Below, piece after piece: positions 3,090-59,686 of a stretch of 64,000 nt of DNA. Source of the DNA: Diphasiastrum complanatum (lineage: Eukaryota > Streptophyta > Lycopodiopsida > Lycopodiales > Lycopodiaceae); the NCBI GenBank assembly GCA_029204225.1, contig CM055106.1:22263285-22327284 (forward strand), read 5' to 3'. Both the position numbers and the translations under genes were made by a program. The first letter of the stretch is position 1. Each line of letters opens with the position of its first letter. The notes below the pieces were generated by a model. The model saw nothing but the letters and a program-made list of their open reading frames with translations, searched no databases and was not told the DNA's origin.

Positions 3090-4527
3090 TGGGACAAAAG
3101 TGCCTGCCAATGTTTTAGATTGCTGGTGTCTCATTGTCTTTTCATATAGCATTCATAATTTATCCTGATTTGCACAACTCAACTTATTCAAGAAGATATT
3201 GAGTGTGTCAGATACTTGGCCATATGCTGCCGGTGCTTAAGTTCATAAAGGATTGTTCTAATTTCATCGACTCTCAGATTGTTCTAATGTTGGTAGAAGG
3301 AAACCTGGAAGTTGAAATGATTCTTTATTCGTTTTATCTGAAAATACAGGGTATGTCAATTTCATGCCTTTCTTTTGTTCTCAAGTATCTCATAGGGAGC
3401 ATGTTCTGTAACTGCCATATACATAATAATCTCAAAATGAGAAAGCCCTCAGATCATTAACGTTAGAGGGAGAACCATCAATTTTAAAGCCCATCAACTT
3501 GCCAGTTTCAGAAATTTCTTGGTGTATGTAGTATATGATTATCAGGGAGCAAATTGTGAAGCATAGTGGGGCAAAGTGTTCATCATTACTCGCATGCTTT
3601 GAATTTTAGTTTAAGATGATTGAAACTTGTATTGCGGGGATACAAAACTAGAGTCTTTGTCCAAATTAGCTATCACAAGGTTGGAGAAAATTCTTTCAAA
3701 AGCAAGACTACATAAAGGAAATGTCACAATTGAGAAAAGTAACATATTGTCGGGAAATGTCACAATTGAGAAAAGTGACAGACTATCAGAAAAGTCACAA
3801 ACTGCTAACAACACGTAATGTCTTAATCTTATTTGTGATGCTTAGACTAAGCATTCTTTTAATCTGTTAGCCATGTGTATATACAACAACTTATCTCGAT
3901 TAGATGCTCAATAACTCGATCGAACGTCTAGAGCGCAATTTATTTGTTCTTTCTCTCTGTTATCATAGAGTATTGTTTCAGAAAGAATGTGACTTTGTCT
4001 ACGTTCAGACTTGTTCTCCCTATGACTACACAATCTATGTTCCAGTAATCTAAGTCGTGTACGTTGTGTTGAATGCTCATTTATTCTGTTCTGATCGATT
4101 CTTGCTATGTAGATGAAACTATCTGTAGATTAAATTTATTCATATGACTGATAATCTGTGTCGATTGTAATGCTCTAGATTCCGCACTATTACACTTTTG
4201 CAGCTAAATTATAAATTAACCTACTTCGTGCATGTCTACGGAATCGACTATATCGATCCAGTGACTTTGAAGCTTTAATCAAGTAGAGCGATCATCGATT
4301 TGTTGAGGTCGTCTCGAATCCGATAGACGTAGATCCATTCACTGAGGTTTCTGCTATTTCCAAGCACGATTCCTAACATTGAAGCATTCAAGAAATGAAG
4401 CGGATTATAACATGTCACGGGGTAGTTTGTTTTCATGAGAGCAATTCTTAGTTTCATAATCACGTTCATGCTATGAGTCCACATCTAACCCTAATTCCCA
4501 CTAATCCTAATCACCACAGTCAAGCTT

Positions 4528-4994: not shown

Positions 4995-6638
4995 TCCTCC
5001 AAAAAGATTCCAACTTTAGGTGATGCAATAATGTATTAAAACCTAGAGCCTAACTAATTATTGTAATGTTTTACCTAAAAATATTCGAATACTAAATTCA
5101 GGAAAATAAAAACCGATAGGCTCATAGCATATAAGGGGCTCAAGCATGTAGGTTTTTGGAAACCTACAATGAATTTCTTGGTCGGTAAAATTTGTAGGTT
5201 TTTTTTCAATGTATTATAAGTTTTTTGGCCAACAAGTTTAGCCCCATAGAGGTGAGATAATAGGATAAGATGATAATGATGCTTGTTGGGGTTCTCTGAG
5301 CTAATAATTGTGATGATGACACTACTCATGTTGCTCCTACACATTGTTACCTATGACCTATGTGAGATTTTTGGAGCTTATTTGACTAGAATTCAAAAAT
5401 TGTCTTTCTGTGAGAGAATCATTGTCTATTCCCCCCCCCCTGCCTCCACATTGGGGATGTGCTAGTTGGAACATAGTTTCAACATAGGCTTCTTGAAGCT
5501 CCACACGATTATACTAATGCTTGCTCCTCCATGTGTAACCCCCCCCACAACCCTCACCTCCCTTCTCATTGCCATATCCAACTTCGACGCTACCATTCAT
5601 GCCATCTCTTATTAAAATTCTTGATTGACATGAAAATATTTTGCGACATAAATTGTTGTTATTTATGAGGTGATAAACTAAAGAAGATGTGGTAACTTCA
5701 AGAGTTCTTAATATATAGTGCTTTTAGTTGTCACAAAAAAAAAAAAATCCAAAACTCATGCATCTATTTAAATCCAAGCGCATGTTGACATTCTTCAACG
5801 GACTTTATTTAGAAGTTGGCCTTGTAACATGACATTGATGCACATAATAAGATAAATTTTGTTTCATCAACATTAGTTCATGTGGATATTGTTCATTACA
5901 AATTTATTAGTGTGGAAAGAAATTGATTAACCAAATGAAAAACATCACGTCACTATAAGTATAATGAAGAAATACTTGCTCATCATAAATAGATTTTTGA
6001 AGATTGAATAGTTTTTCATAGAAGATGAAAGTATCTTATCTTATTGTAGGACTTCAAGTATGCACTTATTAATATTATGATTGAATCTTGTAAATTTCAA
6101 ATTTGTGAAAAAATCGTTAAAAATGATCAAATGAGATTTATTACCACATATGCACTTCCACAAGGCCTCACATATAGATCTTGACCTCCACTGGCATTTA
6201 AGGGACATAAATGCACCATTGACTTCCACATCAGGAACTTTCCACAACTTTATCACTTTGAGTAATGAATACCTTAGAAGATCAATGTTTATGGGTGACA
6301 TAGCTTGTACTTCTAGTTTATGTGCACGTACTTGGTATATGTAAACCCATTGTTTCAAGTCATCAACACATGTCTATCACTATGTAGCTAGATTTTCTTA
6401 CAAGACATCAAAAAAATTATATACTAAGAATTCGAGTTAAGACTCGGGCCACTATACTAAGCCAAAAACAAAGTCTTCATCACAAAGTATTCAAAGCATA
6501 ATGACTTGAATCTTCAAACTATATAGAATCAATATATTGTACTACTACCACTTAAAAGCACTCATTTGATTAAGGCACTTTTGAAGAGTTCACAAAAGTT
6601 CCTTTTTGTCAAAGAAAGAAAAGCTTTTAAGCATGTAA

Positions 6639-6691
<53 letters not shown>

Positions 6692-7472
6692 TAATTCAGA
6701 TCATGTTCAAGAGCTCAAACTCTGTCAAAAGTATTCATTGCACTTTGGTGTATGAGTTTGGGTACATGGAAGAGATGAGAATAATAGCAAGTGTAAGAGA
6801 TACTTATCTTGTAGATATCATTGTAGTAATAAGTAGGTTAATTCAACTTTTTTAATAAATGTGAAACAAAAAAGCTACTATAAGCTTGTGTGAGCTTAAA
6901 AAAGCTATGTACTATGATCACACACTTACGCATCTCTGAGTTAGTTGTTTTAAATATATATATATATATACTACACAAAAGTTGTTGGTTTCTTCTAGAA
7001 CAAGTTTATTGATATATTTTGGTTCATAACATTATCTAGCATTACACAAATTTTTTTTATGGTTAAAGGATATGAGAAACTATGTAGAATGACTCCTATT
7101 TCTTTTACAATCTTGAATTTACTAGATTACTTTGCTGTCAAAATATTACAACATTTAAGTAAGGCTAAGATGAAGCTTTAATCAAATCATATTTAGTGGG
7201 TACCTTATTGAATCATTTGGTGAATCAAGCAAGTTCAAAAATGAGGTTTCATCATGGTTCTGAATATTAACTCATTACAATGACTTAGCTGGGTAGACTA
7301 GTGCCATACTAGCAAACTCTAGCCATTGTGTAGTTTAAGGAAAGAGCCTTGTGGTCCATGTGTAGGCTTGGCCAATTACTTGATGTACATTGTGTATTTA
7401 TACAAATGCATCTAGTATTCTTATTGTGAGCATCATGTGCCATCTACAACATTATATACTCAATAGAGTTTT
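4995..7472. other. AT-rich non-coding stretch
   Basis: No protein family is recognisable in any frame. The stretch includes poly-C runs near 5433 and 5540, a long (AT)n microsatellite at 6643-6686, a shorter (TA)n near 6953-6970 and poly-A/T runs. It is probably old intergenic or decayed transposon DNA. Confidence 0.6.
6643..6686. repeat. (AT)n microsatellite
   Basis: A perfect (AT)22 tract, self-complementary and able to extrude as a hairpin. Confidence 0.97.
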
Positions 7473-36380: not shown

Positions 36381-37345
36381 AACTGACGAGTTTTCTGTCA
36401 GATCTCAATCAACGGATTCGTCTCAGATCTCAACCGGAGTGCAGCGTCCTATTGATTTTCGACCGAAGCGTACAGTTAAATCTCGACCAAAACACCTGTC
36501 AGATCTCAATCGAAGCACCTGTCAGATCTCGACCGAGGCTCTCATCAGATCTCGACCGAGGCACTCATCAGATCTCGACCGAGACACTACTCGGATCTCG
36601 ACCGAAGAACCTATCAAATCTAAACCAGAGCGACCTCTTCGATCTCGACCGGCGCATACTGTTAAAACTCGACCAAAGTACCTATTAAATCTCGACCGGA
36701 GGTCCTAAATTCAAAATCTAACAAACCGGCACGTCCCATCTCGCCCGCAACCAAATGATGGCGTCCATAAATGCCATCACCTTGATGCCATTCGCACCTC
36801 AGCAAAGTGCGAACTCTGGCATTTTCTTTTCACATCATACTTCATTTCCCACACATCTTCCACACCGTTCTGTCCAACACACCTCCGCTTTCACACACCT
36901 TCCCTTCCCAACCTCCATCTTTCACAAACCTTTTCTTACCGCACCATACATTGCTCCACACACATCTTCCAATCCCTTCTACACAACCATTTTCACCTTC
37001 CATATCGACCGGAGCCAGTCCATCCATCTCGACCGATGCCATCTCTCACATCTCAACCGAAGTCCTGTCTCAGATCACGATCGACTCCATCTCTCACATC
37101 TCAACCAGAGTCCTGTCTCAAATCTCAACCGACACCATCCCTCAAATCTCAACCGGAGTCCTGTCTCAGATCTCGATCGACGCCATCCCTCAAATTTCAA
37201 CTGGAGCCAGTCCATCCTATCTCAACCGATGCCATCCTTCAAATCTCAACCGACGCCATCCATCAAATCTCAATCGGCACCATCCATCAGATCTCAACTG
37301 ATGCCATCCATCAAATCTCAACCGATGCACCCTTAACCCTGTCTG
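36381..37345 (+). repeat. Tandem repeat array with CAGATCTCGACCGA core
   Basis: Two blocks, about 36381-36705 and 37005-37345, consist of units of about 24 bp (the second partly as 48-bp dimers) built on (C)AGATCTCGACCGA or TCTCAACCGGAGTCCTGTC. Because the unit length is a multiple of three, all three frames stay open over hundreds of bases and give repetitive Ser/Asp/Leu/Arg/Thr peptides. About 300 bp of non-repetitive DNA separate the blocks. Variable tandem repeats between pol and the 3' LTR are a known trait of Tat-type gypsy elements. Confidence 0.9.
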
Positions 37346-37400: not shown

Positions 37401-39850
37401 TGTCATCCAATCCCAGTTCCAGTTCTGAAGACTCCAAGGCAAATAAGTTTGACATCCAACTATGTAAGTTAGATCTTATAGAGATGCAGACTTGGTACCA
37501 GCAGGTAGAGTCTTTCTTCAAGGCCATGGAGTTCCAGATCTCTATCCTGACAAGATATCAAAGCCTGTACTGGTACGTATGGCGTATGCCAACTATAATG
37601 CAATGACAAGGTCATGTCAACTCATAGTTCCCCCTATCAGGAACTATGTTCATAACGTATCTTTTGTAGCAGTTGACTTGCAACCTTTTGGGTTCCCTCG
37701 AGGACCAAATGCTGTCATAAGGATACTCCAAAAGATAGAGCAGACACCAGCATCAAATGCTCAAGAACAAGGTCAAGTACCAGGACCAGAAAATTGCGCA
37801 ACAACAGAAGCTGGCCAAGGACAAGAAAAAAGAGACAGAGAAAATCAGATCTGTGACAACTAGGTAAAAGACCACTTTGGAAGAGGTCCAGCAGCAATTG
37901 AAGCACTAGATGTCCAGATCGACAAAGTACGAGACAGATTGTCGGGTGCAATGACAGTTGATGCCCATCTAGTTAAGCCCGAGGATATACAATTCCAGGC
38001 CCCACAGGCCTCAACCATCCGGATGGAAAAGTACGTATGGCTGATCCAAGAACGGGAAGCCGAGAAAAAGAATTTTGAAAATATTGTGGCTAAGCAAGAA
38101 GAGATCATCCTGGAGTCCCAGAAGCAGCTAGAAGACACAACGAAGGCCCTGCAACAAGTCTTGGACAAGGTGAACCAGTTGTGGGACACGACGTGCAAGG
38201 CTCAAGCAGGTGCTCATTCAAAGAAGCCACATGACGATGATGAGAATGAAGGAGCCGGAAATAAGGATGGGCAAACTCGACCATCAGATGGTAGTTCAAG
38301 ATCGGGTAGCTAGAGAGCCGGAGCTGCTTCTAGAGCTTTTCCCCCTCCCCCTCCCACTTTTAACCCCTCCTCTTATTCTGCATTTAATTTTTCCGAAACA
38401 TTCATTTCAACTTACCCTGTTTTTTCATCTTTCCTCTCTCCACCACCTCCTAGTAGAATAATGGGCCCATCAAAAGGTCCAGCTGACATGTACAAGGCCC
38501 GACGGGACAAGTTCCTTCAACAACTCCACTCCCCCAGTGCGGCGTACAATTTGTTAAACCCACCACCTCCCCAACCTGTCATCCCTGCACCTCTCTCTCC
38601 AGATCACTCCGTCCCTGACCTTCCAGATATTGGGGGTAATGATGACTTCCTTGCAGACCCACCAGAAATGAAAAGATTCTCGTCCAGACAAGATACGGGC
38701 GCAACTGAGCCATCAACGAGCGAACGGGCCAAGGACAAAGATACGGGCACCAAGGCCTTGGATGATTACCTAGCGAGGCCACCACAACCACGTAGGACAA
38801 CTTCTCCTACCAGGACCAGGAGCAAGATGGCTGATACAAAGGAAGCTGATAAGTCTGAAAGGAAATACCCTCTCAACATGAGGGGAGACAAATACGAGAT
38901 AGATCAAAGCCATATTCCACCAGGGCTGAGATCATTGCGGCATTACAACTGCAACCAGAATGGTGTAATAAGATCCTGAAGGATAGTAGGCGGCTCCAAG
39001 AGTACCTGAAGGCATCGGCATGGAAGCGAGTGGATCCATTTTACATGTCGCTTAAACGCAAAATCCATGGCTGGCAGAAAAGCCACGGGTTGAGTTGGTG
39101 AACTGGCCAGTGATTCTGAGAATTTCAGAGAGAATCTCTCCGGATAACCTGAGGTTGCAGTTACTTGATTTCGGGCACAAATACAAGACAAGTGCCAATC
39201 TATGCATGCAAGAAAGTGCCGAATACTGCCAATCTATGGCCTTTCTGATGTAGCAAGATTGTTTCTGGGATTGTGGTTTGAATCCAATCAAGATCAATCC
39301 CAACATAGCCCTCCAGTCAGAGGAAAACCATGAGATGATGGCCCGACTATACTACAGAGTGGCCTTCATGTCGTCACGATATGTGACCATGGTGGAAGAC
39401 TGGCATGAGATGGACTTTATTGAAAAGATAAGAGAGTACCTAGGACCACTAAATTTTGAAAGTAAGCTCCCTTCCAGGTATTTGAGGCCCTGGGGCAAAA
39501 GATGAGCAAGCGAAAACAATCAGCAAGATGACAAGGCGAGTAGGACTTGCAAGAGGTTCTCAAGGGGGCTGGAATATAGCGGCCATTGAGAGACTTTCAT
39601 TTTTGAGAAACAATTTTGCGGATAATAAGCACCTGATTTTATGGAAGCAAATGAAGATCCATGCTTTTCCAAGTGCCGAGTGGAACGACATCACCTGTGT
39701 TAGTGGGTCCTGCAACAGATTAGGGGTGGATTATGTTAGTGGATTCCAAAGAATCTCCAGATGCTGAGCCAAGTTGAAGACATAGATTACCTCTCACCCA
39801 TGATCGAGGAGGTCTCAGAAGGAGGAGAGCAGAAGAAGCTGAGAGTCTAG
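37401..39850 (+). pseudogene. Extra ORF region after gypsy pol, broken
   Basis: A series of plus-strand frames (37401, 37492-37863, 37939-38313, 38461-38979, then scraps to about 39850) looks like one former protein of about 800 residues interrupted by frameshifts and stops. It begins MSSNPSSSSEDSKANKFDIQ. The middle part has a heptad-like, charged segment (REAEKKNFENIVAKQEEIIL) that predicts a coiled coil, then a Pro-rich stretch (LLNPPPPQPVIPAPLSPDHS) and basic/acidic low complexity. No known enzymatic domain is seen. Its position between pol and the 3' LTR fits the additional ORF reported in some Tat elements, whose function is unknown. It could also be a captured sequence. Confidence 0.6.
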
Positions 39851-39935
39851 CATGAGAGCCGAGAAATTACTAGCTAGGATGACAGTGAATTATCTATGTG
39901 AGTCTACTTGGTGTATCCCAGAGAAGGAACGACCA

Positions 39936-40741
39936 TGTAGGAGCTAGTAATATTTCCTAGGCTTTGTAAATAAATGTAGACCACCCTTAAATAATTTAGA
40001 GTGAGCCACCTTTTGATGGTGACCTCTAGTGGAAGGGCAATTTTCACATGTAATTTTTAATCTGGTGGAATTGCCACTTGGGCTCCACATGGGCAGCCCT
40101 CTTGCTTATTTAAGGGGCCCCCTCTCTTGTGAGGGAACTTTGAATGTATTGTCAAGTTCTCTTGAGTGAATAAATAAGATCTTCCATGAGTTCTTGATGA
40201 TTGTAAAGCTCCTTGTTCATGGCAATGTTCTTGAGTGAAATTCCTATGAGCATGTTTTGATCTCCTTTGTGTTTGTGGATTAACTAGATTTCTTGCTTAC
40301 TCTCTTGTTTTTAGTTGTGATTTAGATTTCATTTCTTGTTTGTGGATTAATGTAGGAATCAGCATTCAAGTAAACTAAATAGGCTGGATTTGTGGTATAG
40401 ATCTTGCATATTCTCTTACATTCCAGTTCTTGATTGTTCTTGGATCAAGAAATGGGTGTTTCTTGATTCTTGCGTTGCTAGAGTGCTGTTAGGAATCTAG
40501 TTTTCTTGTTTCTTGTTTCTTGTTTCTTGTTGAGTAGTTTAATCTTGTTATTGTTTTGTTCCTTGATTTTAGTAGATAGATTGTGGAATTTCTCCCTGAT
40601 TCAAAACGCTGATCCATACTGAGCTAGGATTGGTTGCATGGCTTGTATGTGCATGTAGCTGAGTAACGAATCTGTCTCTCCCCACTGACAGGCTGGGGAA
40701 TACTCATTGTAATCTGAGAACATGGTTCTGCTTGGAAACCA
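39936..40741 (+). mobile_element. Possible 3' LTR of the gypsy element
   Basis: The segment starts TGTAGGAGCTAG after a purine-rich AGAGAAGGAACGACCA and ends near GGAAACCA. It contains a TATA-like CTTATTTAAGGGG at about 40107, a run of TTTCTTGTTTCTTG short repeats at about 40501-40535, and no ORF. No 5' copy exists in the window to confirm the ends. Confidence 0.4.
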
Positions 40742-40846: not shown

Positions 40847-40867
40847 AAGAAAACAGGCTTACTAACA

Positions 40868-41047
40868 TATATCTCTGAATCTAACATAATGTTCATAAAA
40901 TACGTCAAAATTTGGTTGTGCAGTCTTGAAAACATGTAAATATGGCCTGAATAGATTGTGGAAGTAGTCTAGATTTTCAGTAATCCCAAATTCAGTAAAA
41001 AATGAACTCAGGCCTGAATCTCGTGAAGATCCTGAGGAAGAGGCCAT
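40868..41047 (-). CDS. Small divergent ORF, unknown
   Basis: A minus-strand frame from the ATG at 41047 encodes about 60 residues starting MASSSGSSRDSGLSSFFTEF and ending YVRFRDIC. It points away from the H3-like gene and shares the same 0.8-kb upstream region, so it may be an independent small gene or the first exon of a longer one; a GTTAGTAAG donor-like site lies near its end. No family is recognised. It may also be chance. Confidence 0.35.
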
Positions 41048-41882
41048 GGAACTAACGTAGATATTGCACTTGTGCGCGAGGGAGAACAAGCAAAACAAAA
41101 CTAACTCTCAAGATTGCGCACAAGAGGGATATGTACGGCAGGTAGCCACTAAATATTTGCACTTGTGCGCAAGTAGGTATCGTTGCAAACAAATGGACAA
41201 CAATGCGCGTGCACAAGAGCGATATGCCGTGAATTTCGAGAACAAAAAAAGTAAAAAATTAATCGGGTTTCGTGGCTTTTATACTAAATTTTCACACATG
41301 TGGTCAACGATCAATGGACACATGTCTACTTTTGATTGGACTACATGCACTGGCACATGTGAGGTGACACCTGAACACGCATGAAATGACACCTGTACAT
41401 GTGTCTCATGCTCATTCGTTTGTTCGACAACACATGTCGCTCTCGCATTTGCCCGTACAAATCCCACATGTGTAAACTGACAACGTGACACGTGTTGCTC
41501 TTGCATTTGACCGTAAAATTCCACACGTACGACAGGACGTTCTTTTGCATGTGCGAACCGAGATATAAAATCACAAACTCCGATGAATTTTTTTCACTTT
41601 TTTTTTCGCTCCGCATATCGCACTTGTGCGCCTCCTTCACAATCGATATTTTGCCTACTGTCTTCCATGCGCATAGGTCCGATACATCTGCCTACGTGTC
41701 TCCTCATATCGCACTTGTGTGCCTTTCTTCTATACTAATCTATCTCTCTGATATTCGGCTCGCACATGTTCAATATATCGTAAATTCTGTCCGTACATAT
41801 CGGTCCTCTACGAGGGCTTTATAATCCTTCCCTGCTCATCCTAGTCGTCACGCACAAGTCCGATATCCCATGGTACACTTCC
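41048..41882 (+). promoter_or_regulatory. Motif-dense upstream region of the H3-like gene
   Basis: Between 41288 and 41555 there are about eight E-box/G-box-like words (CACACATGTG, ACACATGT, GCACATGTGA, GTACATGTGT, CCACATGTG, GACACGTG), spaced 20-50 bp apart. GCACTTGTGCGC-like words occur at about 41066, 41158 and 41620, with GCACTTGTGTGCC at 41709 and the complementary GCGCACAAG form at about 41114. A TATA-like CTTTATAATCC lies at about 41817, 60 bp before the ATG. Together this looks like a promoter, possibly two-sided, or the motif-rich terminal region of a DNA transposon. Confidence 0.5.
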
Positions 41883-42656
41883 ATGGATAGGAGAAACCAG
41901 ACAAGTAGGGATTTCTTCTCTGTTGGCTCGTCCTCAACTCCTGCGATTGCCATTACACCTCCCACTAGACTTAGAACGTGCAACCGCAGCAGGTGGCTCT
42001 CTAAAATACGTAAGTATCAGAGATCAACTGCTCTATTGATTCCCAAAGCTCCATTCTATCGTATCGTCCGAAACATAACTAGAAATGATCTCAAACAACT
42101 GGTTAGATTCACACCCACTGCTCTTCAGTGCCTTCAGGAAGTTGCTGAAGACTATATGAGTCTTTTTTTTGAAGATTCATTTTTGCTTGCAATTCATTCC
42201 AAGAGAGTCACCATAATGCCCAAGGACTTTCAGCTATTGATGAGCATGAGGGAGAGATTATGCAAGTTACACATATCTCAACCTGCTGCTCCCAGACCTG
42301 TTCCTCTAGATAGGACTGATCTTCCTACCAAGCGTCCTAGGAAGCAGACAACCCCCAAGAGAGCTCTGAAGAAAGTAAGGAGGGTAGACACCACAAAATC
42401 TGCGAAGCCTAACCCGGAACCAATTGTAGATAACGCTGCTCTTGATAATGTTGTAAATATAGCTACATCTATTTTGGATACCCCTGTAATTCCTGTAGAT
42501 ACTACACATCCACCTCCTCCTCCTCCTCCTCCTTCAAATCTTTATACATATATAGATTTCAATGATTATCTTAGATTTGAGAAGGACATATCCGATGCTA
42601 TAGATACAATTGGTACTCCTTTTTGTTTTAGACTAGATGAACTTGACTTAGTATAA
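41883..42656 (+). CDS. Histone H3/CENH3-like protein with long C-terminal tail
   Basis: A 257-codon intronless frame. Residues about 37-127 follow the H3 fold: KIRKYQRSTALLIP (alpha-N), PFYRIVRNIT (alpha-1), TALQCLQEVAEDYMSLFFED (alpha-2) and AIHSKRVTIMPKDFQLLM (loop 2/alpha-3). Several choices are those of centromeric H3: LLIP, VR.IT, AEDY, KDF.L, and a loop 1 one residue longer than canonical H3. The first residues MDRRNQTSR echo the H3 tail MARTKQTAR, with K4 changed to N and K9 to D. Unlike any canonical H3, about 130 residues follow the fold: a basic patch (KRPRKQTTPKRALKKVRR at 150-167), then PPPPPPPP near 210 and an acidic end. The frame stops at 42654-42656, and a protease-like region starts in the next frame, overlapping by a few bases. 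Nucleosome incorporation is not known. It could be a captured and altered histone gene in a mobile element. Confidence 0.75.
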   Translation: MDRRNQTSRDFFSVGSSSTPAIAITPPTRLRTCNRSRWLSKIRKYQRSTALLIPKAPFYRIVRNITRNDLKQLVRFTPTALQCLQEVAEDYMSLFFEDSFLLAIHSKRVTIMPKDFQLLMSMRERLCKLHISQPAAPRPVPLDRTDLPTKRPRKQTTPKRALKKVRRVDTTKSAKPNPEPIVDNAALDNVVNIATSILDTPVIPVDTTHPPPPPPPPSNLYTYIDFNDYLRFEKDISDAIDTIGTPFCFRLDELDLV

Positions 42657-43647
42657 ATTATAGAGATTGTTTGGATCTCAAAGATAGACGAGCTTCTATC
42701 AGTGATCTTGTGATAGAGTCTGGGCTTACACTCTTGCAATATGACATTGCAAGAGATTCATCCAATGAGTTGTTGGTGCTGAGTAACTTTTTGCTTCAGG
42801 CCTTCAAGGAGAATAATGACACATTGTCACAATGTCTGACTAGTGGATTCACACCAGCAACAAAATACATGCTCGTCCCTTATCATACCAAGTAAGATAT
42901 ATTAAATGCTTTTTGTTGTTTAATGCTTTATCATTGGCATTGTCAATGGAAATAGTTCTTAAAATTGCAGCTAAAGAAATTTCAATCTTATTTTGCAGTG
43001 ACCACTGGAGTTTAAACCTGATCTCTATTAAGAGATATGTAGATAATACTATTAAAGGTTTTTGTGTCAAGATGAACTCGGCGAGCAATACGCATAAGGA
43101 TGTAGATATATACCTTCCATATTTAAGTAAATATATTCCTATAGATGTTCCCCATTTCGTGGACTGGCAAATCGTTAGTTTGGAGGTAAATTCTGTCTTT
43201 CTTAACAACATTTTGAAATCAGTATTCTAATGTATTTGTTTCATTCTAATTCATTCTGTTTCATAATTGATTTTTTGTGTGCTGAATTTTTTTGCAGTCA
43301 CCCCAGCAAAATGATTCTTTCAGCTGTGGGTAGTACACATTATACAATGCAAAGTTATTTTTTGAGTGGTTCAACCTTTCAAGAAGATGTTGATATTTCT
43401 AAGGCAATAAATTCTGTTTATTCTTGTTTTTGGAATCATGATTAATTTTCTATTTTGTTGATGCTTTTATCCATTACTAATACATGAATGTTCTATTTTG
43501 TAGTTTACATTTCCTGAGTACACATAAAGCCAGGTGTACAGATTTAGACAAGCAATTAACGTGAGCACACTGGCTAGGGCAAGGCTTCAGCCTCCCGTTG
43601 TTGATGATGGTGCAAAGGATGATGTAATTATACTAAATAAAGATTAG
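42647..43647 (+). pseudogene. Ulp1-like (C48) cysteine protease, intron-containing and decayed
   Basis: Likely exons are 42647-42891, 42999-43185, 43298-about 43444 and 43504-43647. The first two introns are 107 and 112 bp with good GT-AG sites and matching phases. The joined reading gives the Ulp1 order: DHWSLNLISI (catalytic His), FCVKMNSASNTHKD where family members have hhDS, then WQIVSLE and SPQQNDSFSCG (oxyanion Gln and catalytic Cys). The triad Asp appears as Asn in KMNS. A TAG follows SCG directly and another stop lies in the last exon, which otherwise ends cleanly in DDVIILNKD. Ulp1 proteases remove SUMO-like tags, and transposon-borne versions are known in plant MULE and CACTA elements. 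The frame begins next to the H3-like stop, one base out of phase, so both may once have been one protein. Confidence 0.65.
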
Positions 43648-43843
43648 AACAAATACAGATAGCATAGAACAGAAATAGATTGCACATGTATAGAATTCAT
43701 AGATAAATATACATTGATATATCAAATGCTGCTCCATTTTATGAATTTGGGAGCACAAAATACATGTACTGATGCCCAACTTGGGCTTTCATTTATTGAA
43801 TGAAAGAGTGTATACACAGATTTTAACTAAAGTTTATTTGAAA

Positions 43844-45419
43844 CTATTGTTCTCCCACAATGGTGATTGTTGTAGGTAGATCTTTGCAGCACGTTATTAG
43901 ATCCTGTCTTTTTCGCATCTGTGACATGACAAATATTAGTGAATGTGCAATTGTAAATGATGACATTTTCAATTATTTTGTTCTATTTTGAAATGGCAAT
44001 AAACATAAAGTACTTACGAGTCTTCCGTTGATGATAAATCTAAAATATGTTGGTAGATTGGTTTGTAATAGCATGAGCTCTGTTCTGATAAAATCAAGCT
44101 TCCAATGCTCTTCCACCTCAACCGTAGTCAAATATTCCTCATTGTAAATAATGCTTATCTCCATTCGGTTTGTGTGACCATTTAGTTCAAAGTCTTGATC
44201 CAGTGGTAGCCATGTACTTTCAATTTTCTTGTATCTCTGGTAGCTAAATGTGAGACTAAGCATTTTCTTTTCGATATGATAATGAAAGATCATTGAAGAC
44301 TTTTTAATCCTGCATTCTATGTCATTATTTGTTTTATTATCCCAGCCTTGATCCATGAGATCTAACAAAGGTAAATCCTTGCAAACAAATAAAGTTGGTG
44401 TCCTACGAACACTAACACGAGAGAAAAAATCAACAAATATATGTAATGAGATAAACCAACTTAAGTGAACAATTTTTGAGCCTATGCTTATCTTCATAGC
44501 ATTTCTAATATCAATGAGTAGCTTGCATCTCAAGGATTTAGAAACAATACTGTCAGGAGTAGGCCACTCATCACTTTGAAAACTAGGCAATGGAATTGCT
44601 TCGAGCTTGCCAAATCCTCCGTCTGTTTGTGGCGTATATAAAGATTCATAAAAATAGATACCACAATCTGCAAGTTCCTTTGGACTTCTTCCTCTGTATT
44701 GCAGCTTTCCAACATCAGAGTGAATCACGTCTAATATTCCTACAAGTGATTGTGCGGGCTTCCATTCACTTATAAACATAGAGTACTTACGAGTCTTCCG
44801 TTGATAATAAATCTAAAATCAATTGGTAGATTGGTTTGTAATAGCATGAGCTCTGTTCTGATAAAATCAAGCATATAATCTACAAGTTCCTTTGGACTTC
44901 TTCCTATGTATCGTAGCTTTCCAACATCAGAGTGAATCATGTCCAATATTCCTGCAAGTGATTGTGTTGGCTCCCATTCACTTATGCATGATGGATATAA
45001 ATCTGAAAGAAAAAAAAAATGTTGAGGCATTTAAATCATAATCTGAAGAGCATCAATAAATAAAATCACCTATGATTGTTGTAGAGTGCATATGTTTTGA
45101 TATATTTACAATTACATTTTTGATGATCATGAGGATTGATATCATGTACTTTGATTTCTGAATGCATATATACATGTACTACTAAAACTTCTGATATTGA
45201 TTGACCGCTCGGGGTAGTCTTAAACTCCAAAATTTTTGCTTTCCAAAAAGATTTGTAAGTTATTTTTGCTCTTTTCTTTTGTCGAAAATTGCCCTTTGAT
45301 GATGGATGCAGCAATACCCATGAATTCTTCGTATATTTTGTTGGCTTCCAGTTATCAACTTCATCTTTCTCATTGTAAAGAATCACAGACTCGATTGTAG
45401 ATCTGGGTCTCCTTGCCAT
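43844..45419 (-). CDS. Three-exon gene of unknown function with duplicated middle exon
   Basis: Exon 1 is 45419-45070 (ATG opening MARRPRSTIESV), exon 2 is either 44980-44791 (copy A) or 44768-44018 (copy B), and exon 3 is 43918-43844 (MRKRQDL...IVGEQ, stop). Splice sites fit: CATAG|GTGATT, ATAAG|TGAATGG, GACTC|GTAAGTAC twice, TCACAG|ATGCG. Exons 1-2B-3 sum to 1176 nt (391 residues) and exons 1-2A-3 to 615 nt (204 residues), both in frame. 2A joined to 2B would shift frame, so the two are mutually exclusive. 2A is a copy of 2B with a 561-nt in-frame internal deletion. Visible phrases are SFWKAKILEFK in exon 1 and RGRSPKEL, CGIYFYESLYTP and WFISLHIFVDFF in exon 2. I do not recognise a family. 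It is convergent with the H3/Ulp1-like genes, the two stops lying about 200 bp apart. Being intact in all exons, it may be expressed. Confidence 0.55.
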
Positions 45420-48400
45420 TGCTATTTTCAAAGCTTTGATGCCAAAAATCTCTCTGATATGAAATTGTATCACATTTAATCTAATGTGAATGCCAACATA
45501 GTCACAGTTACTGGGTATACCATATTTTATGTAACTGTACGTGTTGTATTTCTATAAATGTAACTAGTATAGTTAGAAAATTTCATTATACTAACTAGCA
45601 CAGTCAAGTAGATTTAACTTGAGGTATTGACGTCGGGCAGATTAGCACGTGTCGGGCAGGAAGAAGAAACCAATGGGATACGTCCATGCTGCTTGGACAC
45701 AAATTTCAAAGTTTTCTATATTGCATTTTCATTTCTCAGTTAATTTGAACTACGTTACGTAGATTTCAAATCTGTGCATTTTGATTGGGCCTAGTGATGG
45801 TCGAAACTAAAGAAAAAAAAAGTATATTTACAAAGGGTCTTTTTTTACTTTGGAACTCTTCTAAAGACCATCACAAGGTGGCTCACTCTACTTTCTTTAA
45901 GAGGGGTCTACTTGCATTTATTACCTTGCCTAGAAATACTAGTTTCTACATGGTCATTCCATCTTTCGGGATTCACCATGAGGCTTACACAGTTCTTGCT
46001 TGTCATTCCTAATGGCAATTCTCGGCTCTCATACTCGGCTCTCAGTCTTCGTTCATCTCATCTTCTCAAAGACCTCCTCAGTGAGAGGTGCTCTTGGGTA
46101 GCTCTATCCAAATATCTTGGGGATTCGTCAGAATCAGCCAACATCATCCCACCCCTAATGTGTTGTAGGACCCATTGCAACTCATATTGGACGATGTCGC
46201 TTTGCTTCCGCATTGGCATCTTCGATTGGCACTTGGAAAAGCGTAGATCCTCGTTCGTTTACATAAAACCAAGTGCTTATTGTTGCCAGTCTTTGTCAAA
46301 AAACTACTTTTCGCAATTTAACCAGAATGTCTTATTGCCGCAAATAGTTGACATCTTCAAAATTGGAGAGCTCCCATCAACTTGACAACTCTGCATGCCT
46401 GAGTGCTTTTCTCATGTCTTTGTCTTATTTCTTTCATTGCATCTGCCATGGATGATTTCACTTATAGTTTCTAGATAGATTCTAACTTCTGGGAGGTTTG
46501 TATCCTCCATATTGCTTCTAGGTGTTTCCGCAATTCTTTTCTCAATTAAAGTTCTAGTCTTGTTGATGCTCTTTCCTAATAGGTAGCACAAATCTTGGTT
46601 ATCAGTCTTCAAGGAAATGGACTCATCCACACATTGGTGGTAGAAATAGATTCGATGAATGGTTTGGTGACGACAAGGAAACATGATGAAGGCTTGGTGG
46701 AAGGGTGAAGGGACTGATAGTTCTACAGTTGCAGCCTTGTACCCTTGCAATGCCGAGCTTCGACCACCACTCGCTGGGTGAGGAGCTCACTTTATTTTGC
46801 AGGTTCACGGTTGTCTTCATCTTTATTTTTCTACAGCTCTTTCCTTAGATCCATTACTTTTGGATCTCTTTGGGCTTTATAAGAGGGGATTCAACTATCA
46901 TTGCTTTAGAGAGTCTCTTTTGATCAAGATTGATCTGACTCAACTGTTGCCTAAGTTTTGTCCTTTCCTCCTCAGTTTTTTGGATTTTTTTTTTCTTTAT
47001 TTTTTTTAGCTACTTTGCTTGCTTTTGTAGACCTTTTTCAGCTGAACAACCAACGTACGTGGTAGTTGGTCTCCGCAAGACATTTGCAGCTGCTTCGGTA
47101 AGACTATAAAAAACTAGAGTTTTCTCAGAAGAATAGTGAACTGATGATAAACAAACAGATGGCAGGTAGGGTGGAGGTGGTGACATCGGTAGATGGTGTG
47201 GATGATAGGCATGAGAATGGGCACAGAAGTATGCCAAGAGGCCAGTTGAAGAAGGATACTAATTTTCCAATGCTTGTGTTTCTCTTTTTTTCAGGATCTT
47301 CGTTGTGACTGAGATAGTTCTTCTGATTGAGTCGCTTTGGATTGCCCATATGTCTTCTTAGCCTTGTCGTTGTCGACTTTGAGTTTGTGACCTTGGCTGT
47401 CGATCTTGCTGATGTTGTTGCTGGCAGCGCAACTACTTCAGTGGATCCAAGCAAATCCACTCTCCCCCCCAAAAAAATCTATTGACAGGGATGTTGTTAT
47501 TGGCCATTGTTCATGCTCAAGATTGGATTGGCGTGTGGAACACATAGTTGAAAACATGTTGAACATGTGACTGGAATAAAGATTGAACAAATTTTAACTA
47601 AATCTATTTTGATCTTGCTGTAGTTGATTCAAAGATAAATATGTTAATGAGATGCAAGAATCGACTCTAACGTGATCTGTACTTTGCAGATTTGGAATAT
47701 GCTCAAAAATCCAAAACTTTGTATAAGGTGAGTTGAAGATTGATAGAGGAATGACAAGTTATTCTTGAGATACGCGACATGATGTCTTCTCCTGTTCAAT
47801 GGCTATCCTTGATGAACTAAAAACAAATCTAGAAAAAGATATGCAATTAGAAGAAATTACCAAATCAAAAAAATGACAAAAACTAGACAAGGAAGATACC
47901 TATGTTACAGAGAGTGAAACATAGAGCACTTGTCAAACAAAAAGTCATTCATCAACATGTATAATTCACCTGGACAATTTCATGTTTTTATTGGTCTTTT
48001 AGAGTAATGAAAGAACTCTCATAAGCCCTTGTCAAAAACAAGGTAGGAATAGTGACACTGAATCTAACATCGTTGATAGTAGAAGCTGTGAGATATAGCT
48101 TGAGATGTAGTTATGGTTGAGGTACTATGTCCTAAATACCTCTATGAGCAAGAGATTCAGACCGAATCTCTATCCGGATTTCGATTCCTAGATGTATTGT
48201 GTACTGGCACATTGGAAATCTTATCAGCATGTGGAAAGACAAATAGATTTGAGGTTGCAAAAGGGGAGAAAAACTGTCAATTCTTTGTGGAGGTTGCTCT
48301 TGGTTGGACATTGTAGTAGATGACGAAATATCGGTTTTGCTTTTCTCCTACAAGGGCTCATGTCATATTAGTGTCTTTTTGCATTATGGAGCTGGTGAAT

Positions 48401-49821: not shown

Positions 49822-50730
49822 TTTAACCTTAGCCCTTGGCCCTTAAACCTTGGCCCTTGTTCCTTAACCTTAGCCCTTGGCCCTTAGCCTTAGCCCTTAT
49901 CCCTTGGCCCTTACCCTTACCCTTCAACCCTTAGCTTGTGGCCCTTAGCCCTTAACCCTTGGCCCTTGTCCCTTGGTCGGTGGCCCTTAGCCCTTGGCCA
50001 ATGGCGGGTGGTCCTTACCCCTTAACCCTCAGCCTTAGCCCTTTGGCTCTTACTAGTAGCCCTTGTCCCTTAGCCCTCGGCTCTTAGCCCTCGACCATTA
50101 GCCTTAGCCTTAGCCCTTGGCCCTTAACCTTAGCCCTTGACCCTTAGCCTTAACCCTCGACCATTGGCCCATGGCTCTTGGCCCTAGGCCCTTAACCTTA
50201 GCCCTTGGCCCTTAGCTCTTAGCCGTTGGCCCTTACCCTTAGCCCTTACCCTTTAGCACTTGGCCTTTGGCCCTTGGCCCTTGGCGCTTATGCCTTCGCC
50301 CATAGCCCTTATCTAACCCTTGGCCCCTGGGCTTAGCTCTCAACCCTTAGCCTTAGCCCTCGGCCCTTGGCCCTTGGCCTTAGCTGTTAGCACTTAGCCC
50401 TTGGCCCTTAGTCGTTAGCCCTTAGTCCTTCATCCATTGCCCTTGGCCTTTCGGTCTTAGTCCTTGGGCCCTTTGTTCTTAATCCTTGGCCCTTAGTCCT
50501 TGCGGCTTGGACCTTAACTATTGGGCCCTTAACCTTGATCTTTGGACCTAGTCCTTAGCCTTTGGGCCTTGGCCCTAGCCCTTAGCCCATTGGCCATTTG
50601 GTCCATTGGCATTAGCACTTGACCTTTAAGTTTCAGCTTGTGGCCTTTAGCCCTTCATCTTAGTCCTTGGCCCGTGGCCCTAAGTCCTTTGGCCCCTTGG
50701 CTTTCAACTCTAATCCCTTGGCCCTTAGTT
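49822..50730. repeat. Degenerate CCCTTRG satellite, telomere-like
   Basis: About 900 bp made almost entirely of 6-7-bp units CCCTTGG, CCCTTAG, CCCTTAA and CCTTAG in irregular order. The pitch is about 7 bp and each unit starts with CCCT, as in the plant telomere strand CCCTAAA, but the canonical unit is not present in runs. The complementary strand is G-rich (CCAAGGG, CTAAGGG). It could be a mutated interstitial telomeric tract or an independent minisatellite. No ORF longer than 60 codons crosses it. Confidence 0.9.
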
Positions 50731-54719: not shown

Positions 54720-55305
54720 AAGGGCAAAGCTCATATAGTCGAACTATCGGACTCTCCTGAAACATCGAACTTTTCAGTTCCCAAGTCGACTATTCCTTTT
54801 GAAGGTCCTAGCTTGTCTACTCTAGACGAACGACTTATCAGCATCGAATCTGAAAAAAACGATGTTGCAATCTAGCAACTACAACATGATGAAAATACTC
54901 AACTTCGCTCATTACCTAGAAGATCGACAAGAGAATGCAGACCACCTATAAGGTATATCTACGAGTCTGCAGCTTATCTTGTTCAAGAGCCAACTATTAT
55001 CGAAGAGGCACTTAGTCAGCCCGATTCCGATCTTTGGAATGAAGCTATGGATAAAGAGTATTTATCTCTTATCAAGATCCAGTCTTGGACTATTGTCGAA
55101 TTATCTGCCAGTAGAAATGTGGTTAATTGTAAATGGATATTCAAAATCAAATACAAGACAGATGGAAGCATCGATCGAAGAAAGGCTTGACTTGTTGCCA
55201 GAGGATATTCTCAGGTACACAATGTCGACTACACTGAGACTTTCAGTCCAATAGTTGAACATTCTTCAATCAGACTTCTATTGTCATTTGTTGTTGTATG
55301 TAATT
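54720..55305 (+). pseudogene. Copia pol, left part of a split element
   Basis: Plus-strand frames show the linker and start of a copia RT: RSTRECRPPIRYIYESAAYL, SDLWNEAMDKEYLSLIKIQS, NCKWIFKIKYKTDGS and YTETFSPIVEHSSIRLLLSF. A stop replaces Arg/Ala near 55190. The RT is cut at 55305 by a nested LTR element and resumes at 59690. About 45 residues of RT (the region of the first catalytic Asp) are missing between the two halves. Confidence 0.85.
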
Positions 55306-56994
<1,689 letters not shown>

Positions 56995-57009: not shown

Positions 57010-58224
57010 TATGGTTTAATATTTCGTGAACTTGATGTGAAGACCTTGTATGTTCATGCATGCAGAAGAACATAAAGCTGCATCCGATGTTCAAGAGGCC
57101 TTGTGCTTCAAAAAGCAAGAACTGCATGGAAAAGATCAAGAAGACAAAGACTCTTGATAGGTATGACGAAGAACCTGATGACAACGAAACATTGGAAGCC
57201 TACTTGCGGAGAACCAGAAGGTCATTTATATCAAGAACATACAACCCGAAACTAGTTACGACCATAAAATCATTGAAGGCCGTACTAGTGAAACAAGGGA
57301 AGAATTTCTTGAACCATAATAATTATTCACTAGCATCGCAAGAATGGTTTAAATGTAGATCTCGAAATGCTTTAAAAAAAAACATCAAATAGGATGGTAA
57401 ATCCTAAGTTGTTTCCAAAAATGATTTTGATTCAATACTATTGGTATTTTTTCATTGAATGTTTCAAACATGCATGCTATGTGATCTGAGCTTTTAGTAG
57501 CTTAATGCATGTCAAGTAATGTTGATTTAAGCATTCATGTCATGTAGTGTTAGTTTACACTTGTTTGCATACTTTATGCAAAAGTAAACCTTGATGATAT
57601 GTTAAATTAAATCAACCATACATGAGAAAGAATTCCTAGTGATTATCCTTAGAGTATAGAAGCATTGCTTCTTAAAAATCACTTCTTGATTAAGATGGAC
57701 CTAGAGCAACTTTTGAAATCATGTATAGGGAGCCACAACTTGTTAAAACATTATATAAAAGAATGACTAGTATGCTAACATACTAAGGATGAACGGAGAT
57801 TGAAAAAAATTCCAAGACCACTTTTCCCTTTTATCCATTTCTAAATCCCTTAAGAAACCTTTTGCTATGAATTCTGTTTCTGGGCTATCTTAAACCCAGA
57901 ATGGAAATGAAATAATTTGGACTATCCTAGATTGATTCAGAAAGAAAGCTAATCTTATTTCATAGCTCAAGAGATCTGAAGTAGATCAAGGAATCAAAGA
58001 GATTCTTCAACCAAAGAAGATCTTAATGTATAAGATCAGATTTGACACTAAGATATTAGCAAAAACACTATATCTCCTCAAGTTAAGAATCATCCATCTA
58101 TGGATGCAAGATGAATGGAACAAGAATTCTTCCAAGAATATCCAAATTTTTTTAAAAGATTTAAGACTCTTAGTTGAGAAATTTTCGTTGAGGACAACGC
58201 TTTATGCATTGGAGGGGTGTAATT
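57010..58224 (+). mobile_element. Internal region of the nested element, no pol
   Basis: About 1.2 kb between the LTRs. The largest frame, 57060-57392 (110 codons, beginning MQKNIKLHPMFKRPCASKSK), is Lys-rich and unrecognised; it does not match Gag. A polypurine tract (GGAGGGGTG) lies just before the second LTR. Lacking gag and pol, the element must have used proteins from another copia element, so it is a LARD-type non-autonomous retrotransposon. Confidence 0.75.
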
Positions 58225-59686
58225 TGTAGAGACAAATTGCCCCAAAGTAATAAAGACTTTCCCAGCTTCAAAGCCAGGATAGACTTTGATGATATAGAAT
58301 TATCAATGAACAATATTCTTTTAAGATATTGTATGAATTTATTACTTGAATGAATTGAGTAACAGGCATGGATACCTGTAGAACTAAGAATCTTCTATGG
58401 ACCATGTTTGATGGTATTATGAACAATGACCTTTTTTTGAAGGGATGTGCAGGTACTCACGAATGTACCTGAAGAATCAGAGCAAGAATAAGAAGCCCTT
58501 TGGGCTTAAGGACTGACCTCTCTTTGAGGATATGTGTAGGTACGCAGGAAAGTGCTAGAAGAACAAGAATCAAAGCAAGAAGTTTTCTAAGCTTAAGACC
58601 GTAAACAAGAAGGCTTTTGACAAAGTCTATAAAGAAGGCTCAAAAGAGTCTATGAAGAAGGCTTATTTTTAAGTCTATAAAGAAGGCTCAAAAGAGTCTA
58701 TAATAAAGGCTCAGTGGAGTCTATAAAGATCAGGAATAGGCCAAGGGAGTGATCACCCTTTTGACCCTATTCACCATGATCGAGTATGGGCAACCTCTAA
58801 AAAATAAGTGCCAATGACCATGATTGAGGATGGGCAACCTCTAGGAAAAAGGGCCTAGGAATTGATGGACATTATGCAAAAACAAGATGGATATATACTT
58901 TGGCTCTTCCTTAGGAACATTGCACTTGGGTGAATTTCCAAGCTGTAACCATGTAAAATTATATGTAAATAAAAGTCCAGTTTGAACCTTGTACCACCTA
59001 CCTCCCACCTACTTTTCCACATGCATTCTAGGCTATTTGACACCTAGAATGGGACGCCCTCCTACACTCTCACTTCATATGCCAAATCATCATAATAACT
59101 CTCCCTAGCTAATACACATCACCCATTCACCCTCTCTAACTAATACACCTCATCCATGCACTCCACTTCACCATAAGTCCAATTGGAGTCTTCCTCACAC
59201 CTCATGCACTTGAACTTGACACCTCACTCACTTTGGAAGGACTCTCCACTCTCTATATAAGCGGAAATGCGCCCCACTACCAAGAGGATTGAAGGATGTT
59301 GCATCCAAGCTCTTCCCATTTGTTGTTTGTTGTGTACAGGTGCTTTGTAGAAGAGGATTGAGGCATTAGCTCAAGGAGGCTATGCTAATTTGTGGACTGT
59401 AGGATTCTTGGAGCTCAAACCCTCTCGGATTTCTATCTCTCTTTCACATCACACACACAAATACTCTCTCTCTCATTCTCTCTCTCACTTTCACTTTCTT
59501 TTGAAATCATGGTATGCTCTTGAATCTGTTATCCATATGTAAGGATGATTGATCATTACCATTGCATGTTAGGCTATCTGTGGCCTAATGTCCATGCATG
59601 TCAGATCTAAAGCTTGCATGTCATGCTATCTATGGCCTATTGCCCATGCATGTCAGATCCAAAGCTTGCATGTCAGATTTGAAGCT
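58225..59686 (+). mobile_element. 3' LTR of the nested element, truncated
   Basis: It starts TGTAGAGACAAATTGCCCC and tracks the 5' LTR, including the TATA box at about 59252 and the start of the GCATGTCAGAT repeats, but stops at about 59686, leaving out roughly the last 130 bp. Copia RT resumes directly. Loss of the LTR end together with adjacent copia sequence indicates a deletion after insertion, which also explains the missing target-site duplication. Confidence 0.85.

Follow-up and report, generated by a model that had tools for sequence, protein, structure and literature searches.

An H3-like histone gene with a C-terminal Ulp1 domain in a high-copy DNA transposon of the clubmoss Diphasiastrum complanatum: a candidate anti-silencing factor

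A high-copy plant DNA transposon in the clubmoss Diphasiastrum complanatum carries an accessory gene whose first exon is an open reading frame for a histone H3-like protein. The frame opens with an ATG and runs from 41883 to 42656 on the + strand of the 64,000-nucleotide stretch of DNA that we analyzed as a whole (the window), specifying 257 amino acids. From comparison with related copies the complete gene is predicted to encode a divergent H3 fold, a long linker and a Ulp1/C48 protease-like domain (Table 1), and that the frame belongs to a transposon gene combining an H3 fold with Ulp1 is close to certain. On balance we favor the explanation that this is a selected H3-Ulp1 accessory gene of the transposon and a candidate anti-silencing factor.

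Table 1. Coordinates in the window of the transposon copy and the parts of its genes
Feature	Position	Strand	Basis or remark
Family A transposon copy, 5'-truncated, decayed	40848..45866	+	similarity to L016, L017, L018, L021
MASSS gene remnant (divergent second gene)	40848..41047	-	aligned to L021 exons
Region between the divergent genes, with GCACTTGTGC and CACGTG/CACATG palindromes	41048..41882	.	
H3-Ulp1 gene, exon 1	41883..42891	+	N-tail, H3 fold, linker, start of Ulp1
H3 fold within exon 1	about 41988-42254	+	
Linker within exon 1			basic/proline/acidic, between H3 fold and Ulp1 domain
H3-Ulp1 gene, exon 2 (Ulp1, HWSL, catalytic His)	42999..43185	+	same exon in relatives
H3-Ulp1 gene, exon 3 (Ulp1, PQQNDSFSCG, catalytic Cys)	43298..43403	+	end set by eye against L021
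H3-Ulp1 gene, exon 4 (end of Ulp1 domain)	43504..43647	+	comparison with L021
Convergent right gene, with local duplications in the window copy	43973..45419	-	homologue in family B
Right terminal inverted repeat, diverged	45835..45866	.	by eye against relatives

An earlier note on this DNA had recognized the helices alpha-N to alpha-3 of histone H3 in their order, and the profile and structural comparisons, among them two of the checks that it had proposed, bear this out: 1) Residues 26-120 recover the Pfam Histone model (PF00125) with E=2e-26 and 93.1 bits, where the cut-off is 26.4, and this core-histone model lies far above those of CENP-T_C, CENP-S and CBF/NF-Y, which give weak sub-threshold matches. 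2) Residues 18-123 match histone H3 in the PDB with E of about 1e-21 (the best being 6.7e-22), and all 60 chains listed carry H3 or histone-domain names. 3) An AlphaFold model of the frame places the helices in the H3 order (aN 35-47, a1 55-69, a2 78-105 and a3 113-132), with a pLDDT of 64-93 by blocks of ten residues over the helices, low confidence outside them, an overall value of 66 and a pTM of 0.39. 4) Foldseek aligns this model with nucleosomal H3 at a best E of 1.8e-7 with an rmsd of 7.0, more compact matches reaching a target TM of up to 0.88 at an rmsd of 1.4-1.9. Loop 1 exceeds that of H3 by one residue in the PDB and tree alignments, as the earlier note had it, and a serine stands where H3 has Thr107; this position, and Arg63 below, are given in H3 numbering.

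The remainder of the frame had been described as a 130-residue extension with an acidic end in an intronless gene. The extension is genuine in that it is kept in 147 other scored copies in the genome, and a tail of 130 codons would stay open by chance at the local base composition with a probability of about 6e-4; the conservation of the tail excludes an ordinary H3 pseudogene followed by out-of-frame flank. Nevertheless, it is a truncated view of the H3-Ulp1 fusion: the stop at 42656 results from a frameshift of the window copy, the relatives continue into Ulp1, their acidic stretch is part of an internal linker, and the Ulp1 part spans further exons to about 43647. A single frame leads from the H3 fold through the linker into the first exon of Ulp1 in L017 (in part), L020 and L021, and the single product of L021, spliced by hand, combines a match to Histone (E=9.4e-28) with a second one to Peptidase_C48 (E=1.1e-10). 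For the latter model (PF02902, cut-off 20.7 bits) L021 scores 42.2 bits and the pieces of the window copy 24.6 bits. In the PDB the Ulp1 domain comes closest to the SUMO proteases 6dg4 (E=8e-4) and yeast Ulp1 (E=1.2e-3). The His of HWSL, the Gln of PQQ and the Cys of CG align with theirs; a catalytic Asp is not evident in this alignment, and hence the protease may be inactive. Of six copies compared, four have an intact HW and four an intact CG. By a simple splice score over 38-46 kb, the acceptor of exon 2 ranks 4th of 499 and its donor 3rd of 414, and the acceptor of exon 3 ranks 1st of 499. We discarded the idea that splicing connects the H3 and Ulp1 frames within the window copy, as the candidate sites are poor and the relatives have a continuous frame. 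The window copy is a decayed relic, because it has the frameshift, placed near 42650, together with a premature TAG in exon 3 and an in-frame TAA in exon 4.

The suggestion of the earlier note that a mobile element carries the histone is supported by terminal inverted repeats, by the number of these repeats in the genome and by the dispersal of the copies. Pairwise similarity to L016, L017, L018 and L021 spans 40848 to 45864 of the window, and the last two bases of the element were placed by eye against the ends of its relatives. The left end of the window copy is lost, with retroelement-like DNA adjoining it at 40848. The right ends of the four relatives read ...GATATTGAGAACTCCTCTAATG and fall at the same place in all of them. 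A full-length copy of this family (family A), at C7:71809545-71818225, measures 8681 bp and has an identical 35-bp inverted repeat at both ends (L030:8746 and L021:7670), which starts CATTAGAGGAGTTCTCAATATCAAAAAGACCC and gives the termini CATTAG..CTAATG. From left to right it carries a transposase-like gene (+), a gene whose product begins MASSSSSS (-; the MASSS gene), the H3-Ulp1 gene (+) and the right gene (-). The MASSS gene finds no significant Pfam family, and its dN/dS is below 1 in most of the larger exon comparisons of the relatives. Between the divergent genes, the palindromes of L021 amount to 11 motif matches, where 1000 mononucleotide shuffles average 0.05, and GCACTTGTGC and CACGTG/CACATG single motifs were also counted in the window copy, L017 and L018. 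In the window copy CACATG is commoner than in L021 and L017, whose versions contain CpG, as is expected from the decay of methylated cytosine.

A search of the 1.74-Gb source assembly with the frame scored 148 of 8130 candidates, all 148 at an identity of at least 75%. The 147 besides the window copy show 75-85% identity over fold and tail, so that the copy count proposed in the earlier note does recover many copies sharing the tail; the matches of the scored copies start at residues 1-21 and end at residues 244-257, and they are found on each of C1-C24. By eye, 26 of the 148, including that of the window, have no stop in the matched stretch. The 32-bp terminal repeat, allowing up to 3 mismatches, occurs 1177+1240=2417 times genome-wide with a reversed control of 0, and an extension of it specific to the left end 563+631 times. 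The flanks of seven full-length family A end pairs (8.1-9.45 kb) show a 3-bp match in one case and a 2-bp match in another; four of seven further elements, having no right repeat in the stretch examined, were dropped from this set, and a nested 2.6-kb end pair was left out. No flank duplication was seen at the one family B end pair, and no 8-bp target duplication in the end pairs of either family.

A second, related transposon family likewise carries an H3 gene, there without Ulp1. This family B accounts for 14 of the 20 loci first fetched (L009-L015, L019 and L022-L027), each with an H3-like gene in which a long polyQ/polyP N-terminal region precedes an H3 fold at the C-terminus; its example in L010 (551-9359) is 8809 bp long, with terminal inverted repeats at 551 and 9359 and the ends CATTAGGGCCC..GGGCCCTAATG. 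The transposases of the two families are about 40% identical in their longest matches (E down to 8e-75, nine family B loci) and their right genes about 31% identical by tblastn (E down to 3e-41), and neither Ulp1 nor the MASSS gene finds a match in the family B loci at E<=0.01. A search with the family B transposase scored 150 matches of 10776 candidates, many of them without a stop, and by eye we counted at least 24 H3 matches no more than 4.3 kb away from a member of these 150. A further locus, L028, is likely to represent a third family: it has two adjacent H3-like stretches (3602-4290 and 6194-6810), of which one starts MARTKQTAREP and one is a distant relative of family A, and L028 also holds a homologue of the MASSS gene with up to 39% identity.

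The residues D, D, C(2)C, H(4)H and E are invariant between the transposases of families A and B. The CMCT clade (EnSpm/Mirage/Chapaev/Transib-like) is characterized, in the available portion of PMC12730594, by C(2)C and H(3-4)H motifs between the second D and the E and by CA..TG ends. With C(2)C, H(4)H and CA..TG termini both clubmoss families resemble this clade, to which they may be assigned by motif only. Pfam transposase models gave no match at E<=10 to either transposase and PDB transposases gave none; hAT Pfam domains were absent from the transposases of both families, and no Pfam match to a MULE transposase or VANC domain was found in the proteins scanned.

The N-terminus of the H3-like protein keeps the H3 tail motif RxKQTxR in families A and B. 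That Lys4 and Lys9 are both replaced, as was read from the window copy, holds for the family at position 9 and fails at position 4: in 25 in-frame family A N-termini (20 scored copies picked by hand, mostly with few stops, and 5 other loci, L016 being left out for a frameshift at its start) 23 have Asp at residue 9, 24 have Arg at residue 8 and 22 have Lys at residue 4, and Lys4 is gone only in a few family A copies, that of the window among them. Family B has Lys at residue 4 in 14/14 and, at residue 9, Asp in 12 and Gly in 2 of the 14; the H3-like gene of L028 has Glu there. Both host H3 copies inspected (n=2) have Lys9. In family B MSEE precedes MARTKQTARD, and the tail may thus not be N-terminal in that family. 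The position of H3 Arg63 is Pro in 22 of the 25 family A copies; this removes a DNA contact, and changes of this sort could be the sign of a protein that stays out of nucleosomes altogether. Together with the long C-terminal fusion and the sub-threshold CENP-T_C, CENP-S and CBF/NF-Y matches, it is what one would expect if the fold served only to dimerize inside the transposition complex, in the manner of NF-Y or CENP-S/T, and not in nucleosomes. We consider this unlikely, given that the core-histone match is far stronger and that the RxKQTxR tail, needless for a mere dimerization domain, is kept.

Selection was gauged on six copies, in which the H3 fold has a dN/dS of 0.07-0.17 in 11 pairs at dS 0.48-0.69, the linker 0.40-0.69, and the first exon of Ulp1 0.11-0.29 in diverged pairs and 0.40 in one. 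Close pairs among the six give higher values, often near or above 1, and between L017 and L021 the fold has 12 non-synonymous and 0 synonymous changes. Across 25 copies the dN/dS of the fold decreases with divergence, being 0.60 for close pairs and only 0.12 for the bin of the most diverged. Judged by these ratios, the H3 fold and Ulp1 exon 1 are under purifying selection, and the pattern can be read as that of a working gene which decays after insertion. A host H3 or CENH3 captured and copied without function, as in the hAT element of Pseudocercospora fijiensis, would account for the stops in most scored copies; gene capture is common in plant transposons (PMC13317346, in part) and inactivated hAT-borne H3 copies are described from fungi (PMC6710886, in part). 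Because of the P. fijiensis precedent we rate this slightly above the near-negligible standing that it would otherwise have, and it is still very improbable in view of the purifying selection on the fold, the retention of the H3-Ulp1 frame in several copies and the presence of H3 in two transposon families with transposases of about 40% identity.

The likeness to CENH3 that the earlier note had emphasized stands as regards the length of loop 1, to which the serine at Thr107 can be added, and is not extended by the phylogeny. In two trees, with only two named CENH3 references, the forks that bear on the position of the family relative to H3 and CENH3 are supported by 47/88 and 51/85 and give no placement. 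The second tree unites five family A rows (99/96) and three family B rows (99/99), joins the L028 stretch weakly to family A (82/73) and puts the transposon H3s together on one side of a branch with a support of only 67/0; the family does not group with the Arabidopsis CENH3 reference, a result that is weak either way given the long branches. This lack of grouping weighs against the gene being a transposon-borne CENH3, for which the two features above can be cited together with KDFQL, which resembles the KDFEL of Arabidopsis CENH3; we hold such an identity to be quite improbable. Like CENH3/CENP-A, the transposon protein is a divergent H3 with a longer loop 1, but it differs in the C-terminal Ulp1 fusion and in its location in a high-copy transposon. 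When the assembly was searched with P0001, which is a CENH3 by guess only, host H3 and transposon-type copies came first and no host CENH3 was recognized; L076-L078 proved to be last exons of ordinary host H3 genes.

The longer loop 1 and the serine at position 107, both CENH3-like, along with the many copies, could also fit a role in targeting. Here the transposition machinery would be anchored by the H3 domain to, for instance, centromeric or replicating chromatin so as to choose insertion sites, with Ulp1 serving to mature the transposase or to free it of SUMO. An Arabidopsis retrotransposon reportedly integrates centrophilically by way of CENH3 chromatin. The spread of the clubmoss copies found over C1-C24 and the lack of a fusion between H3 and transposase render such a role fairly unlikely.

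We propose instead that the H3-Ulp1 protein may act as an anti-silencing chromatin factor. Its H3 fold would pair with host H4 and either enter nucleosomes or bind histone chaperones. The tail, which keeps Arg2, Lys4, Gln5, Thr6 and Arg8 and has an acid in place of Lys9, might be readable like that of active H3 and, because of this acid, would lack the Lys9 methylation used in transposon silencing. The fused Ulp1 domain would remove, or at least bind, SUMO on nearby silencing proteins, and the clustered palindromes between the divergent genes may be the site at which a transposon protein acts. As no Ulp1 match was found in the family B loci, Ulp1 would not be essential to this scheme. The mechanism is putative, and we see it as a serious possibility that falls somewhat short of probable. 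The available text of PMC6084981 has Arabidopsis MOM1 and the SUMO ligase-like PIAL2 acting in silencing, and also reports that the MOM1-SUMO interaction is not required for silencing in Arabidopsis, which counts against the mechanism. PMC12903445 (in part) points to a link of SUMO with the targeting of CENH3 by way of KNL2. Transposons are known to bear comparable genes, as VANC proteins, some with a Ulp1 domain, are transposon anti-silencing factors (PMC13317346, in part) and other transposons have genes of the TET/JBP or SET type (PMC12730594, in part). We further count against anti-silencing the many decayed copies, with only the 26 of 148 free of stops, the dN/dS near or above 1 in close pairs, the MSEE before the family B tail, the Pro at the position of Arg63, the missing counterpart of the catalytic Asp in Ulp1 and the inactivated hAT-borne H3 of P. 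fijiensis. More tentatively still, a lineage of plant DNA transposons, undescribed in the literature within our scope, may hold an H3 variant as a standing member of its gene set, with which it builds or mimics nucleosomes that have Lys4 but an acid at residue 9, its element chromatin thus escaping Lys9-based silencing; in one branch of the lineage the H3 would have become fused to a SUMO protease by which silencing complexes are stripped.

The earlier note knew of no described family with this layout; H3-like genes of fungal hAT elements are in print, though without Ulp1 in the text available. The hAT of Pyrenophora tritici-repentis contains, besides its transposase and a central ORF, the H3-like gene H3L, and the question has been raised of whether the altered histone affects chromatin (PMC3538342, in part). 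P. fijiensis and its relatives have such hAT elements too; in P. fijiensis these show 8-bp target duplications, and the H3 copies are passengers inactivated via RIP (PMC6710886, in part). Like the clubmoss families, these are DNA transposons with terminal inverted repeats that enclose an H3-like gene and reach tens to hundreds of copies; unlike them, they have a hAT transposase and, in P. fijiensis, 8-bp duplications, neither of which was found in the clubmoss families, and the portions of the two papers at hand mention no Ulp1. What sets the clubmoss families apart is their plant host, the fusion with Ulp1 in family A, an acid at residue 9 and selection seen across both, and these features, together with the other transposase type, are what is new as far as we found. 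Since H3-like genes also occur in fungal hAT elements, histone capture appears to have happened more than once. The TET/JBP-carrying transposons of fungi include KDZ elements. They resemble the clubmoss families in bearing a gene, in their case for DNA modification, that is thought to counter silencing (PMC12730594, in part), whereas the clubmoss cargo is a histone with Ulp1 and the clubmoss transposases have no sequence match to known ones. The Arabidopsis Vandal elements, with VANC and Ulp1-bearing KIU genes, offer another case of a plant transposon with an Ulp1 accessory gene, and their VANC, which counters silencing, acts on motifs in non-coding DNA of the transposon; but they are non-TIR MULEs for which the available text of PMC13317346 mentions no histone fold, and no MULE or VANC model matched the clubmoss proteins. 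SET-methyltransferase genes in HarbingerS (PMC12730594, in part) and in a proto-Helentron (PMC4067079, in part) also give transposons a histone-related activity, with the difference that the cargo is an enzyme that marks histones and not itself a histone. Histone sequence lies inside a Culex Helentron as well, in the form of H4 and H15 gene fragments, but these are broken, belong to other histone types and sit in a rolling-circle element of eight copies (PMC4067079, in part). Lastly, core-histone-like proteins are encoded by other non-cellular elements, the Marseilleviridae and Medusavirus (PMC8015243, in part), which differ in being large DNA viruses that package their own genomes.

A scan of viral_contigs gave no relative of the frame. 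Among 5.8 billion proteins, searched over candidates of at least 0.55 times the query length and hence leaving out the 136-residue H3s, the frame finds 17 matches at E<=1, of which 9 reach E<=0.001, with alignments that cover the fold only, and there is no match for the tail plus Ulp1. A transposon histone with Ulp1, or one in plants, was not recognized in the literature within our scope, outside of which most subscription papers lay. The clubmoss families suggest that some transposons supply their own chromatin parts, perhaps avoiding silencing in this way. If so, histone capture would, together with the fungal H3L, be a recurrent strategy of transposons and not a fungal curiosity, and it becomes a testable question whether a selfish element can escape silencing by means of its own histone with Lys9 replaced. 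Surveys of H3 and CENH3 in such genomes may be flooded by transposon copies.

Further repeats were noted in and around the element. Flanking the transposon copy are two inverted, retroelement-like copies at 39585-40020 and 45867-46317 that are about 69% identical. Further to the left, at 36480-37328, tandem repeats of 23-24 bp lie upstream of a gag-like frame, and their open frames specify repeated peptides of the SRPRHSSDLDR and ISTDAIHQ types. The local duplications in the right gene of the window copy pair 43999-44099 with 44772-44872 and 44665-44773 with 44877-44985, at 91-95% identity. To the right, 55299-56566 and 58218-59499 form a direct repeat of 1.28 kb that is 92% identical. At 49827-50501 a 7-bp unit of the CCTTAGC type is repeated in a long and degenerate array, and similar-looking CCTTAGC-type sequence lies to the left of the L018 element (in L029).
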